A stretch of DNA of 64,000 nucleotides. Origin: Levilactobacillus angrenensis (lineage in GTDB: Bacteria > Bacillota > Bacilli > Lactobacillales > Lactobacillaceae). Both the position numbers and the translations under genes were made by a program. The DNA lies in assembly GCF_003946085.1 (NCBI RefSeq), contig NZ_RHOB01000002.1, forward strand, positions 124,001 through 188,000. The letters are read 5' to 3'. Of the stretch, positions 1,724 through 38,261 are shown piece by piece (the stretch's first letter is position 1; each line of letters begins with the position of its first letter). A model generated the notes under the pieces. It was not told the DNA's origin. It worked only from the letters and a program-made list of their open reading frames with translations, and made no database searches.

Positions 1724-1952
1724 CTTAAACTCAGAACTGAAGTAGCCTTTATGTGGTAATTCCCGGAACGGCAATATTCTGTCCACTAAAATTAGTGAAA
1801 CCCAGAGCCTGCGTCAACCAGAGATTCCAGCGGGTTGGTGATTATCAGCACCATTGGTTAGTCAAAGGCTGATTGCCAATCCTTACGCCATCAGTCGCGT
1901 AGTGACAATGTTTCTAGCTGATTTTCATCTTTCGACCTTTAGCTCAAATATG
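1724..1952 (-). repeat. Dispersed element copy F (ends only, no structured core)
   Basis: This 230-base spacer shares its left part (CTGTCCACTAAAATTAGTG, AGAGCCTGCGTCA) with the right ends of elements A, B and C. Its right part (reverse strand AAAGATGAAAATCAGCTAG and on to GGCGTAA) matches the left ends of A and B. The roughly 200-base structured core of the other copies is missing, so the two ends are almost joined. The element stops about 12 bases before the U-run of the rpoC terminator. No coding potential is visible. Confidence 0.75.
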
Positions 1953-14908: not shown

Positions 14909-15546
14909 CTAAGGTTGAAAGATGAAAACTAGCTAGAAGCATTGTCACCACACAACTCATGGCGTAAAAATCAGCCATTTACCGCCTCGTAGTGTGGACT
15001 GGCCGCCTACCGTCCGCCAACTATGGGTTGGAACGCGGTGGGCGGACCGGACCGAGCCTGAGAAGCGGTCTCGGCCTCGCTTTGAGCCGGAAATCGCGTC
15101 TCAAAGACGCCAGTTGCCTAAGCGGCATGAACCCCGCCGCTAAGACAACTCCCACGGCTGAACCCATATTTGGCGGACTCCCGGCTACGAGTGTGTGTGA
15201 TAGTAATGGGTAGCTTAGCCCCAGTTAGCGGTTGATTTAACAACTAGTCTTTAACTAGCGCCATCTTGCTGATAATCACCAACCCGCCGGAGGCAGTCAG
15301 GGATGTAGCCAGCTGTGTCGACGGTGTTGGCTGAGGTCCTTTCTCAGCCTACAGCGTGGGGCGACTCTGGAGACTGGCGAGATTTGCCAGGCTTCAAAGC
15401 GAACCGGAAGACCGCTCTTGGGCTGGAGGTGTCCCCCATAGCAGGCGGAATCTCTGGCTGTCGCAGGCTCTGGTTCCCTCCAATTTTAGTGGACAGAACA
15501 CTTTTATTCCGGGAGTTACTGCGTAAATGCTGATTTCAAACTTCAG
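14909..15546 (+). repeat. Dispersed structured element copy A (full length, about 640 bases)
   Basis: One of two full-length copies (the other is B). Left end AAGGTTGAAAGATGAAAAC and right end (reverse strand) CTGAAGTTTGAAATCAGC form loose terminal inverted repeats. The core has an outer helix, GTCCGCCAACTATGGGTT (15012-15029) with AACCCATATTTGGCGGAC (15161-15178). The helix encloses a CCGAG/CTCGG hairpin, a CTTTGAG/CTCAAAG hairpin and a long hairpin AGTTGCCTAAGCGGC with GCCGCTAAGACAACT. To its right (about 15300-15470) lies a diverged, inverted second core. The right end stops about 6 bases before the U-run of the serS terminator. Confidence 0.85.
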
Positions 15547-17277: not shown

Positions 17278-17608
17278 TCCGCCTTACCGTTGCACTGGTC
17301 GAAAACAGTTGCCTATGGCTCCTAAGGCCTCTGCCTACTGTGGAGACCGCCTGTAAGCCAGAAGCAGACTTCCAGCTCGCACACAGTTACTGCCAGCAAG
17401 TATTTACGGCAAGCGCTACCGTAAGCCGAGAGTGAAGCGAAAGTTGTGCTCAGCCGTGGGAGTTTCCTTAGCGGCGACCTTTGCCGGTTAGGGAACTGGC
17501 GTCTTTGAGACGCGGGCTTCGGCTCAAAGCGAGGGCGAGACCGCACTTTGGCTCGACCGGTCCGCCCACAGCGTTCCAGCACAACTTTCGCGCAACGGCA
17601 AGGCGGAC
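17278..17608 (-). repeat. Dispersed structured element copy E (divergent outer helix)
   Basis: 331-base element bounded by near-perfect inverted repeats TCCGCCTTACCGTTGC (17278-17293) and GCAACGGCAAGGCGGA (17593-17608; one mismatch). The core is in minus orientation and keeps the CTTTGAG/CTCAAAG hairpin and the AGTTCCCTAACCGGC/GCCGCTAAGGAAACT hairpin. Its outer helix, GCGAAAGTTGTGCT (17437-17450) with AGCACAACTTTCGC (17578-17591), is unrelated in sequence to that of A-D yet a perfect 14-base match. It lies between the serS promoter and the stop of the kinase gene; no ribosome site or coherent reading frame is present. Confidence 0.8.
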
Positions 17609-20094: not shown

Positions 20095-20337
20095 TAAAAA
20101 AATCTCCCTCGCCAGAAAAGCCCGCGAAAGAGATTGGAAGTTTCATTATTCCAAGTCAATATCGTTGAAAGCGCCCCGCAACCCATATTTGGCTGCGACA
20201 GTCCCTGATCTGTTAAACCAGGACCCAACCACCACGCTATGTCCTCACGTGTTGATTTCGGCGACCGCCCCTTTAACTTTCCTTCAGCGATGTGACCCAT
20301 CTCCGGAAAGCGACTCTTGTTGGTCGCGCCTCTTCTA
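20095..20337 (-). promoter_or_regulatory. Lysine riboswitch (L box) with terminator
   Basis: The minus strand carries the L-box blocks in order: GAGGCGCGACC, AAGAGUC, GGUCACAUCGCUGAAGG, AAAGGGGCGGUCGCCGAAA, then a long apical arm and closing UUGCGGGGCGCUUUC. They are followed by a terminator helix AAUCUCUUUCGC with GCGAGGGAGAUUUUUUU (20095-20136). Lysine binding would terminate transcription before lysP. Confidence 0.88.
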
Positions 20338-20350
20338 TTCGATACTTTGT

Positions 20351-21958: not shown

Positions 21959-21989
21959 ATCCTTTCTCGTCTTGGGAAAGGATTTTTTG
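21959..21989 (+). terminator. Terminator of the hydrolase gene
   Basis: AATCCTTTC and GGAAAGGATT pair around TCGTCTTG and are followed by TTTTTTG. Element C starts within about 10 bases downstream. Confidence 0.85.
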
Positions 21990-21996
21990 TGTCATC

Positions 21997-22452
21997 CTAA
22001 AGGTTCAAAACGAATTAATGCATTAACGCCTGGAGTGACAGCATTGTGCCCACTAAAATTAGCGAAACCAGAAGCCTGCGTCAGCCAGAGATTATCAGCA
22101 ACACTGTGTTAGAGATCAGTGGCTAGATCAGCTGTTACCTGGGGCTAAGCCGATCGTCCTTAGCACACACTCCTGTAGCCGAGAGTCCGTCAAATATGGA
22201 TTCAGCCGTGGGAGTTGCCTTAGTGGCGTGATTCATGCCGCTTAGGCAACTGGCGTCTTTGAGATGTGAACTACGGCTCAAAGCGAGGCGTCGAGACCGC
22301 CCTTTGGCTCGACCCGTCCGCCCACCGCGTTCCAACCCATAGTTGGCGGACGGTAGACGACCAGCTCGAACTATGAAGCTGTAGACGACTAATTGAACGA
22401 GAAAAGTCGCGTGGTCACACCGGTTATAGCTGATTTTTGTCTTTCAGATTTT
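21997..22452 (-). repeat. Dispersed structured element copy C (minus orientation, about 455 bases)
   Basis: Shares both ends with A and B but lacks their inverted second core. Outer helix arms are 22334-22351 (AACCCATAGTTGGCGGAC) and 22185-22202 (GTCCGTCAAATATGGATT), with two mismatches and one G-U pair. The inner hairpin uses TCGAG/CTCGA where A and B use CCGAG/CTCGG. It fills the space between two convergent terminators exactly, about 8 bases from the one on the left and 10 from the one on the right. Confidence 0.85.
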
Positions 22453-25167: not shown

Positions 25168-25194
25168 GGTGTACTAACTTTCGTTTTATTTCAC

Positions 25195-25829
25195 TGAAGG
25201 TTGAAAGATAAATATCAGCTAGAAGTACTGTCACCACGCGACTGATGGCGTAAATATGAGTCGTTTATAGCATCCTAGTGAGAACTGGCCGCCTGCCGTC
25301 CGCCAACTATGGGTTGGAACGCGGTGGGCGGACCGGACCGAGCCTGGAAAACGGTCTCGGCCTCGCTTTGAGCCGAAAAACACGTCTCAAAGACGCCAGT
25401 TGCCTAAGCGGCATGAACCGCGCCACTAAGGCAACTCCCACGGCTGAACCCATATTTGGCGGACTCTCGGCTACAAGAGTGTTTGCCAGCAAAAGTCGGT
25501 TTAACCCCAGGTATCGGCTAATCTAGCGACTAGTCTCTAGCACAGTGTTGCTGATAATCACCAATCTACCGGAGGCAGACAGAGATGGAGCCAGCTGTGT
25601 CGACGGTGTTGGCTGAGGTCTTTTCTCAGCCTACAGCGTGGGGCGACTTTGGAGACTGGCGGTCTTAGCCAGGCTTTAAAGCGAACCGGAAGACCGCCCC
25701 TCAGGCTGGAGGTGTCCCCCATAGCAGGCGGAATCTCTAGCTGACGCAGGCTCCTGGTTTCACTAATTTTAGCGGACAGAACACTGTCGTTCCAGGGGCT
25801 ATCACGTTAATGCTAATTTCAACCCTTAG
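25195..25829 (+). repeat. Dispersed structured element copy B (full length, about 635 bases)
   Basis: Near-collinear with A throughout, including the inverted second core at about 25590-25720. Outer helix arms GTCCGCCAACTATGGGTT (25298-25315) and AACCCATATTTGGCGGAC (25447-25464). The right end, reverse strand CTAAGGGTTGAAATTAGC, abuts the mntR stop codon directly; the left end is 28 bases from a terminator. So it appears inserted in the 3' region of the mntR transcript, core antisense to it. Confidence 0.85.
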
Positions 25830-26477
25830 TTATTTCACAAAAATATAGTGCGCTGCCTTGTAGCTAACGATCAGCTCGGCATCATCCGTGAGATTTTGTA
25901 CCGTCACGGGGCCTTCGAACGGATCATGCTTGATGATTTTCAGTTGGTCCCCGATGTCTAGCTTTAAGTCGCCCAGGTACGTCAACAGATCATGGTTATC
26001 AATGAACCGATCGACCGAGACAATGTCCCCGTCCGCCGCATCATTGAGCACCGTGTGTGAATCTTCGTGGTAGTGGCCGTAACGGTCAGGAATTACGCCA
26101 CCGTGCGGACAATGCGTGGGATTCCCCAGCATATCGTCCAGCGCGTTGACTAATTTGGCACTCGTCACGTGTTCCAAGACCTCCGCTTCATCGTGAACGT
26201 CCGGCAAATCGTAGTCGAGCTTTTCCACTAAAAAGTCTTCCCAGATCCGGTGCTTGCGGACCAGATCTTCGGCCAGGCGAATGCCCTTATTGGTCAACGA
26301 AATCCCGGCGTAGGGCGTGTGTTCAGCCAGCCCTTCTGCCGCCATTTTGTTGACCATTTCGGTCACAGAACCCGCCGCAATATTCAAGCTGATGGCAATT
26401 TGCTTATTGGAAACCTTTTTCTGTTTCCCACCCAGCTCAAAAATAATTTTTAAATAATCCTCCTTCATCGGAGTCAT
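25830..26477 (-). CDS. mntR: DtxR/MntR family metal-dependent regulator
   Basis: Metalloregulator of 215 residues. The winged helix spans about residues 1-65 (KKVSNKQIAISLNIAAGSVTE). The dimerisation and metal-binding domain follows, with HDEAEVLEHVTSAKL and PTHCPHGGVIPDRYG. A C-terminal SH3-like domain is present, which makes it the long DtxR-type version. Manganese or iron is the usual ligand; which one is not certain. ATG 26475-26477 has GAGGTG upstream. The neighbouring cation efflux gene 61 bases upstream is a possible partner. Confidence 0.88.
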   Translation of the reverse strand: MTPMKEDYLKIIFELGGKQKKVSNKQIAISLNIAAGSVTEMVNKMAAEGLAEHTPYAGISLTNKGIRLAEDLVRKHRIWEDFLVEKLDYDLPDVHDEAEVLEHVTSAKLVNALDDMLGNPTHCPHGGVIPDRYGHYHEDSHTVLNDAADGDIVSVDRFIDNHDLLTYLGDLKLDIGDQLKIIKHDPFEGPVTVQNLTDDAELIVSYKAAHYIFVK

Positions 26478-26538
26478 CACTGTTCACCTCATCTAGATAA
26501 TGCCTCATTTATACCGCGAATCGCGGCAAAACGCAAGG

Positions 26539-31989: not shown

Positions 31990-32060
31990 GGGACTGGCTG
32001 ACGGAACTGGCCGCAAAATATGAGTTCTCGGCTACACTAGCAACTACCAGCAACCGAACA
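31990..32060 (+). repeat. Remnant G of the dispersed element
   Basis: GGAACTGGCCGC, seen at the left edge of the A/B core, is here followed at once by ATGAGTTCTCGGCTAC, which matches the right edge of the core (ACTCTCGGCTAC). The core itself is deleted. Like C it sits between two convergent terminators. The rest of 31979-32177 shows no gene. Confidence 0.5.
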
Positions 32061-32177
32061 ACACCCTGCCCACCATTGAAAACAATGACAAGACCCGATG
32101 GCGGACACCCGCCTATCTCAACCGTGAGTAGGAGAAGATCTAGACACCAATGACGCAACAGTCCGCAAAAAAGTACA

Positions 32178-33707: not shown

Positions 33708-33732
33708 CCTGGTTATTGGCAACTTCAGTTCT

Positions 33733-33930
33733 TGTTGGCCGCCTTACCGTTCGTCAACTATGAGGCTGGAGCGCGGTGGGCGACCGGGGCGAGCCAAAAA
33801 GCGGTCTCGCCACCTCGCTTTGAGCCGAAAATCACGTCTCAAAGACGCCAGTTGTCTAACCGGCATGAAACCTGCCGCTAAGACAACTCCCACGGCTGAG
33901 CTCATAGTTGACGAACTCTCGGCTACGGTG
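33733..33930 (+). repeat. Dispersed structured element copy D (core only)
   Basis: Core-only copy with a perfect 16-base outer helix: GTTCGTCAACTATGAG (33749-33764) with CTCATAGTTGACGAAC (33901-33916). Inside are hairpins GGCGAG/CTCGCC (33788-33793 with 33806-33811), CTTTGAG/CTCAAAG (33818-33824 with 33838-33844) and AGTTGTCTAACCGGC with GCCGCTAAGACAACT (33850-33864 with 33874-33888). Against copy A the outer helix has three base changes per arm, all compensated. Confidence 0.88.
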
Positions 33931-34059
33931 GGGATGTCATTAATCACCGGTGTCGTCTGTCACTCCGCCAACAATCTCGTAACACTAGATAAGAGATAAC
34001 CGACTGCTGCTAATGAATTTGCCAATAGTTTTTTACAACAAAATCACTAAACCACAATG

Positions 34060-37846: not shown

Positions 37847-38261
37847 AAAAAATCCTCCATTTCTAGTTCTATCTCTAAGCCTACCGGAGCCACCCAACTT
37901 TGTCAAAGCATTTGCTGTTTGACCGATTGCTCTGACCGTCTTACCAGTAGCTAGTGCGAACGGCGATGGTAAATGGTTATTCCCCAGCCGCCACAAGTAT
38001 GACTGGCATACTCACCCACGACTAGCATCACTCCCCACGCTCAGCTGCGGATAAGGGGGGACAAGCCGATTGTGCCGACCAGTCACCACCGTAGCCGGGA
38101 GTTGCGCGAAAATAGTGACCAAACCAAAACAGGCCCCGTCGCCAAGGACTGGCAACGGAACCTGTTGATGGCCATGATGGCCGGTGAAACTTGTTTGGTG
38201 TTAGTGGGCAGTACGCCCGGCGACGCGTTGGCCAAAGACCAACCCGACGACAAATAAGAGA
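37847..38261. other. 415-base intergenic region
   Basis: No gene is supported. A 61-codon plus-strand frame at 38072-38257 lacks a ribosome site and has no recognisable features. The plus strand near 38130-38170 can form a stem (ACAGGCCCCGT with ACGGAACCTGT) but without a T-run. Confidence 0.5.

Follow-up and report, generated by a model that had tools for sequence, protein, structure and literature searches.

What are the folded, dispersed repeats in this part of the Levilactobacillus angrenensis genome, and is the pairing of their helices maintained as RNA or as DNA? In a first-pass annotation of the window (the whole stretch of DNA that was analysed, 64,000 nucleotides), five copies, A to E, had been described as sharing a core in which an outer helix encloses three hairpins, with base changes on one side of a helix matched on the other.

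Five folded copies and the covariation of their helices

Using R1, a covariance model built from 25 copies, five type I cores were detected in the 64 kb window. These are the copies A to E, and they fold as had been described (Table 1). The module is ~190 nt long and contains an inner helix in addition to the outer helix around three hairpins. A 17-base core word occurs five times in the window, where 0.02 occurrences are expected. Copy D, folded singly as single-stranded DNA and without an alignment, adopted the outer helix and the three hairpins, with z values of -6.1 for the + strand and -7.8 for the - strand; 0 of 200 shuffles equalled these values.

The individual base changes had been read correctly. 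Between A and D the 5' arm of the outer helix differs by C to T, C to T and G to A, and each partner base is altered to match. In the first hairpin, copies A and B have C-G as the outer pair, C has T-A and D has G-C. One pair of the long hairpin reads C-G in both B and C but T-A in D; copy A has a C.A mismatch at this last pair. At locus D all helices differ, with compensation, between our strain and Levilactobacillus suantsaiihabitans. Ectopic conversion may be the source of this difference, since our copy D is similar to other copies of the family.

Table 1. Positions of the modules, full elements and helices in the window
Feature	Position	Strand	Evidence or remark
Remnant of full element	1740–1942	-	Cores missing
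Copy A, full element	14910–15546	+	Terminal inverted repeats 14910–14921 and 15534–15546; no target duplication seen
Copy A, type I module	15002–15190	+	R1, 197 bits
Copy A, type II module	15281–15471	-	R2, 178 bits; tail-to-tail with A type I
Copy E, type II partner	about 17278–17380		Remains only
Copy E, type I module	17420–17607	-	R1 match
Copy C, type I module plus incomplete type II side	21984–22446	-
Copy C, type I module	22173–22361	-	R1 match
Target duplication TTATTTCAC, left of B	25186–25194	+
Copy B, full element	25195–25829	+	Terminal inverted repeats
Copy B, type I module	25288–25476	+	R1, 196 bits
Copy B, type II module	25563–25754	-	R2, 182 bits
Target duplication TTATTTCAC, right of B	25830–25838	+
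Copy D, solo module (type I) plus conserved flanks	33726–33958	+	R1 match; flank conservation (about -12 to +30 around core)
Copy D, core	33738–33928	+	R1, 179 bits
D outer helix P2, 5' arm	33749–33763	+	Covaries in 25 copies; partner 33902–33916
D outer helix P2, 3' arm	33902–33916	+	Single-copy fold
D hairpin 1	33788–33811	+	Arms 33788–33795 and 33803–33811; one bulged T
D hairpin 2	33817–33848	+	Arms 33817–33824 and 33838–33848
D hairpin 3 (long hairpin)	33850–33888	+	Arms 33850–33865 and 33873–33888

The covariation claimed from these pairs was also found in a plain MAFFT alignment of the 25 copies (A1), which was made without regard to the structure. In A1, 92.7% of 1453 cells were paired and 35 of the 59 pairs had changed on both sides (0 of 500 shuffles). 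Double-sided cells numbered 173; shuffles gave 50 and slid controls no more than 31. Because the structure had been traced by eye on the same sequences, it favours itself to some extent, for which the slid and shuffled controls partly allow, and cells are not independent events, the sequences being related. The richest helix was P2, in which 15 of 18 pairs covary.

Among the copies of our own genome, single-sided changes stayed at 0.047–0.100 per pair over an unpaired divergence of 0.02 to 0.50, while compensated double changes rose from 0.007 to 0.194 per pair with divergence (the lowest bin, a single comparison with 0.020 single and 0.060 double changes, was set apart from these ranges). Mismatches are therefore purged or corrected. 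In 28 lower-scoring, mostly solo copies, drawn from the best 76 of 133 rows with identical rows of one genome counted once, 186 cells were compensated and 112 single-sided.

Abundance, paired organisation and insertion

R1 matched at least 150 modules in our own genome and at least 150 in Levilactobacillus brevis CD0817 (in each case 150 of 150 scored candidates), making the family an abundant feature of both species; in our own genome the weakest matches probably represent fragments or modules of type II. With copy A as query, at least 41 matches were obtained in our own genome, 40 of them of at least 480 bases (40 of 270 candidates scored). In the covariance search of Lactobacillaceae that the first-pass annotation had proposed, the family was found widely, in 86 of 301 sampled genomes and 12 of 40 genera, and the matches are intergenic: among 93 elements, just one overlapped a predicted gene (854 kb of stretches from our own genome, simple gene calls). 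In a sample of the order, 12 of 295 genomes matched R1, all of them Lactobacillaceae. By BLAST, 25 of 35 Levilactobacillus genomes and 0 of 23 genomes from other families of the order matched, and the core word was located in 27 stretches, all from L. brevis CD0817 or L. suantsaiihabitans. Plasmid and phage records gave no blastn match with copy A.

The remaining elements lie between tandem genes (51), convergent genes (33) or divergent genes (4), or at stretch edges (4). Of the intergenic regions between convergent genes, 32 of 96 contained elements; for tandem genes the figure was 51 of 275, and for divergent genes 4 of 92 (R1 matches only, the four stretch-edge elements set aside). The stretches had been picked where R1 already matched, so these densities do not stand for genome averages. 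Protein coding was considered and rejected. Even the best reading frame is uninterrupted in no more than 24 of 76 copies, and ORFs of 80–116 aa overlap B, D and E, yet none lies within A.

The core fold had thus been described correctly, but the unit had been drawn too small; it is a larger, mobile and often paired element. Copies A and B each belong to an element of ~635 bp that contains a second, inverted module and terminal repeats. This partner module (type II) is detected by a second covariance model (R2), R1 detecting type I. Of 82 close module neighbours (<700 bp), 78 were arranged tail-to-tail and none head-to-head. The tail-to-tail arrangement accounted for all 39 neighbour pairs of our own stretches, for 27 of the 29 in seven relatives and for 12 of the 14 from a further 20 stretches. 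For this count, type II modules were the best-scoring R2 rows (45 of 150 and 43 of 119) and R1 rows were screened for type I by score rank (86 of 133, 50 of 73 and 33 of 33); one own-genome pair that overlaps itself by 79 bases (L124) is included.

Unpaired modules in our own stretches were type I in 42 cases and type II in 9. Solo type I modules had a lower mean identity (0.772, n = 42) than paired ones (0.841, n = 42). In copies classed as solo (32 of 35 used) conservation of the flanks is limited to about -12 to +30, which indicates that the module has its own borders. An extra outer helix in these flanks (P0) had a mean stem score of 6.14, which exceeded each of 60 shuffles, though only slightly (mean 5.65, highest 6.09).

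In one Levilactobacillus subfamily the module pair is located inside ~90-bp arms ending in TGAAGGTTGAAAG-like inverted repeats. These ends were present at both sides in 19 of 20 subfamily elements (up to two mismatches allowed) and were absent from the conserved flanks of solo modules. A 9-bp target duplication with at least 7 of 9 bases was found for 10 of 19 elements, whereas mismatched end pairings gave one in 6 of 342 cases; the other 9 elements, including A, showed no duplication. Copy B is flanked by TTATTTCAC on both sides. L. suantsaiihabitans lacks B and contains the TTATTTCAC site once, and L. brevis, also without B, contains it once with one change. For solo modules, inspection by eye gave no clear target duplication. 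The first three bases of the right-hand TTATTTCAC are the stop codon of ORF 25830–26480 (-), an iron-dependent repressor by Pfam.

Derivatives without intact cores keep the terminal repeats, and some of them (L131, L139 and L158) duplicate 7–8 of 9 bases. Movement by way of the terminal repeats therefore needs no folded modules, and some other role should account for the conservation of the fold. Three short derivatives (L128, L139 and L153) have lost most of both cores, with a join near query positions 151/499, and apparently form a smaller subfamily; 7 of 9 bases are duplicated at L139. In these three (L128:2018, L139:14888 and L153:17541) the same inner deletion is seen at mirrored positions. 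Elsewhere in the window, 31992–32166 and 37918–38121 are module remnants from which the palindrome interior has been deleted, and L. suantsaiihabitans retains both modules.

At locus E, the element of L. brevis is inverted relative to that of our strain and of L. suantsaiihabitans. An independent insertion, instead of an inversion in place, is unlikely, since the exact outer-helix word of this locus occurs once in our own genome (G000), and in two other genomes of the genus once (G003) and twice (G033). The orientation at locus C also differs between species, and is not discriminating. Two reports describe template switching as homogenising arms and inverting spacers (PMC8604942, PMC8794818). 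Compensated changes, few intermediates and in-place inversion, being products so described, would all be accounted for if the copies were palindromic mobile repeats of an ordinary kind, with a functionless fold and with arms homogenised solely by template switching. However, copying between arms should have erased the bulged T of hairpin 1 (T68) and the unpaired A of hairpin 3 (A119), yet both are conserved without exception in all 25 rows. The presence of the layout in 12 of 40 genera and the rigid pair orientation also argue against this explanation, which we regard as quite improbable.

Pairing at the level of RNA or DNA

The covariation had been attributed to selection on folded RNA or single-stranded DNA. 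Structure-preserving covariation was confirmed, but the RNA half of this proposal is disfavoured by a near absence of G-U pairs, with no excess over A-C. Selection at the RNA level should replace Watson-Crick pairs by G-U far more often than by A-C. In the drawn structure of A1, G-U occupied 25 (1.7%) and A-C 48 (3.3%) of 1453 cells. In the control, made up of 30 copies of the lysine riboswitch from this genus, the figures were 260 (16.1%) and 4 (0.2%) of 1616, with a structure derived from RNAalifold, which favours G-U. One lysine riboswitch is located in the window itself (20161–20342, - strand) and served as RNA control.

When A1 was also folded by RNAalifold, the given strand yielded 22 G-U and 25 A-C of 1241 cells and the reverse complement 44 and 16 of 1366. 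Type II modules (alignment A7) gave 28 and 22 of 735, and 75 and 24 of 1044 on the reverse complement. The wrong strand of the riboswitch gave 33 G-U and 17 A-C of 930, showing that a G-U to A-C ratio of 2–3:1 is obtainable from RNAalifold alone.

With a single count per pair and genome, P2 and H1–H3 (170 distinct rows, 43 genomes) gave 72 GT and 135 AC events, from the best-scoring 66 of 99, 76 of 133 and 34 of 73 rows with identical rows of one genome taken once. On the + strand, AC thus exceeds GT about 2:1 (p = 1e-5, with sequences treated as unrelated), and the pattern is not fully strand-symmetric. P1 (GT 18, AC 5) and P3 (GT 34, AC 11), which both lean the opposite way, were kept out of this total because their alignment was distrusted; including them gives GT 124 and AC 151. 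The pairing thus departs little from strict Watson-Crick rules, and any lean toward the reverse-complement strand is weak at most. Since G-T ranks with the mildest mismatches in DNA, a preference of this kind could arise from a folded DNA strand. The covariation does not look like that of RNA, and DNA is the better reading.

Nevertheless, the modules could encode a structured RNA on the reverse complement, or be required, whichever strand is transcribed, as a structure at mRNA 3' ends; a structure required on both strands would also disfavour G-U. Many unpaired positions are nearly invariant, the reverse-complement strand of D folds better, and G-T exceeds A-C on that strand both in the RNAalifold counts above and in the events (135:72). 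The elements also favour gene 3' ends, as the occupied intergenic regions indicate. Even so, G-U on the reverse strand remains at 3–7% and A-C at 1–2%, far from the riboswitch values, and the riboswitch read on its wrong strand behaves similarly. The A region has one promoter-like site where 0.3 are expected, and solo modules between tandem genes are oriented with the genes in 24 cases against 13 (p = 0.10). Nor was an Rfam match obtained. We consider an RNA function unlikely. The family offers a natural case of many copies with compensatory change minus the G-U signature of RNA, and can be used to tell selection on RNA apart from template switching or from pairing kept at the DNA level; it also cautions that covariation alone is no proof of RNA.

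The family had not been recognised in the first-pass annotation. In the Rfam search no family exceeded its gathering score at these sites and, at E values up to 10, the A region gave only three unrelated, chance-level hits; a known RNA family was rejected on these grounds.

Related repeat families and the mobilising enzyme

A literature search on repeats, MITEs, palindromes and structured RNA of Lactobacillus and L. brevis, with subscription papers outside its scope, found no description of the family. In the available text of a 2008 survey of stem-loop repeat families, Lactobacillus is named once, as L. johnsonii (PMC2267715). The structured non-coding RNAs of Rfam share a covarying, multi-branched fold with conserved loops, but differ in their G-U and A-C counts. 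REPINs and REP-BIME elements of Pseudomonas and E. coli are likewise high-copy, non-autonomous intergenic palindromes, mostly of two inverted copies and a spacer, with more diverged singlets. Here, however, an arm measures ~190 nt and comprises three hairpins within an outer helix, the arms are of two diverged types, and the genome has no Y1/RAYT match. Bacterial MITEs such as the Correia elements of Neisseria are also short and non-coding, with terminal inverted repeats and target duplications; more than 120 Correia copies in N. gonorrhoeae, and their inversion, are reported in PMC10969869. Unlike in MITEs, the terminal-repeat form is a single subfamily here, and modules are also present outside this form, with covariation that extends across genera. 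BOX, RUP and SPRITE of Streptococcus pneumoniae are dispersed Gram-positive repeats, some of them structured (same source). They are probably distinct, R1 having matched nothing outside Lactobacillaceae in the 295 sampled genomes of the order.

We conclude that the family is probably non-coding, non-autonomous, REPIN-like mobile DNA with folded arms, the pairing of which is kept at the DNA level. Structure, covariation, the lack of an RNA-like G-U signature, the pair architecture, copy number, terminal repeats and one insertion absent from relatives were counted as observed. A typical unit consists of a type I and a related type II module (~190 nt each) tail-to-tail over a short spacer, with solo type I modules also being common. 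Each module is a nested palindrome, and in the cell it could adopt its fold either on a single DNA strand or as a cruciform. This fold would most likely be a recognition feature for an enzyme of the host or of a transposon, and we infer that correction of arm mismatches may take place in the DNA itself, through selection on its folded form together with template switching between the arms during replication. In one Levilactobacillus subfamily the pair has been captured inside the ~90-bp arms, and its movement produces the 9-bp target duplication.

Movement by a Y1 (RAYT) transposase, as for REPINs or IS200/IS605-like elements, would fit the inverted doublets, the high copy number and the greater divergence of solo than of paired type I modules, which PMC3116915 reports for REPINs. 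However, our own genome (G000) has no PF01797 (Y1) match. Among 34 Levilactobacillus genomes, 23 have Y1 matches (maximum 8, in G029) and 11 have none, and module carriers occur in both groups, G012 and G032 being carriers without Y1. Moreover, the modules measure ~190 nt and have three hairpins, against 20–40 bp for REPs (PMC3733652). This explanation is very improbable.

No clear candidate for an autonomous parent was found between matching terminal repeats in 854 kb of the 2.8 Mb genome. One long span (L147, 2229 bp) was rejected as parent because it contains two separate elements. Among ORFs near modules at 188 loci, no transposase was evident except Y1 genes, some of which had been deliberately included; this check, made by eye, covered the 46 largest clusters and the 70 N-terminal residues of each. 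Replication-strand bias in L. brevis was not significant under any of five guesses of the terminus (p = 0.07–0.24), the origin being assumed at base 1.

Tentatively, the modules may represent a new class of mobile DNA in 12 of the 40 sampled Lactobacillaceae genera, with ends that would be read as large folded single strands by a non-Y1 enzyme; the strand so read would perhaps be the reverse complement. Four loci of one genome (L256–L259, G178) contain type I and type II modules around spacers of 240–378 bp, with no mutual BLAST match of more than 100 bp among those listed, and these spacers are possibly variable cargo.
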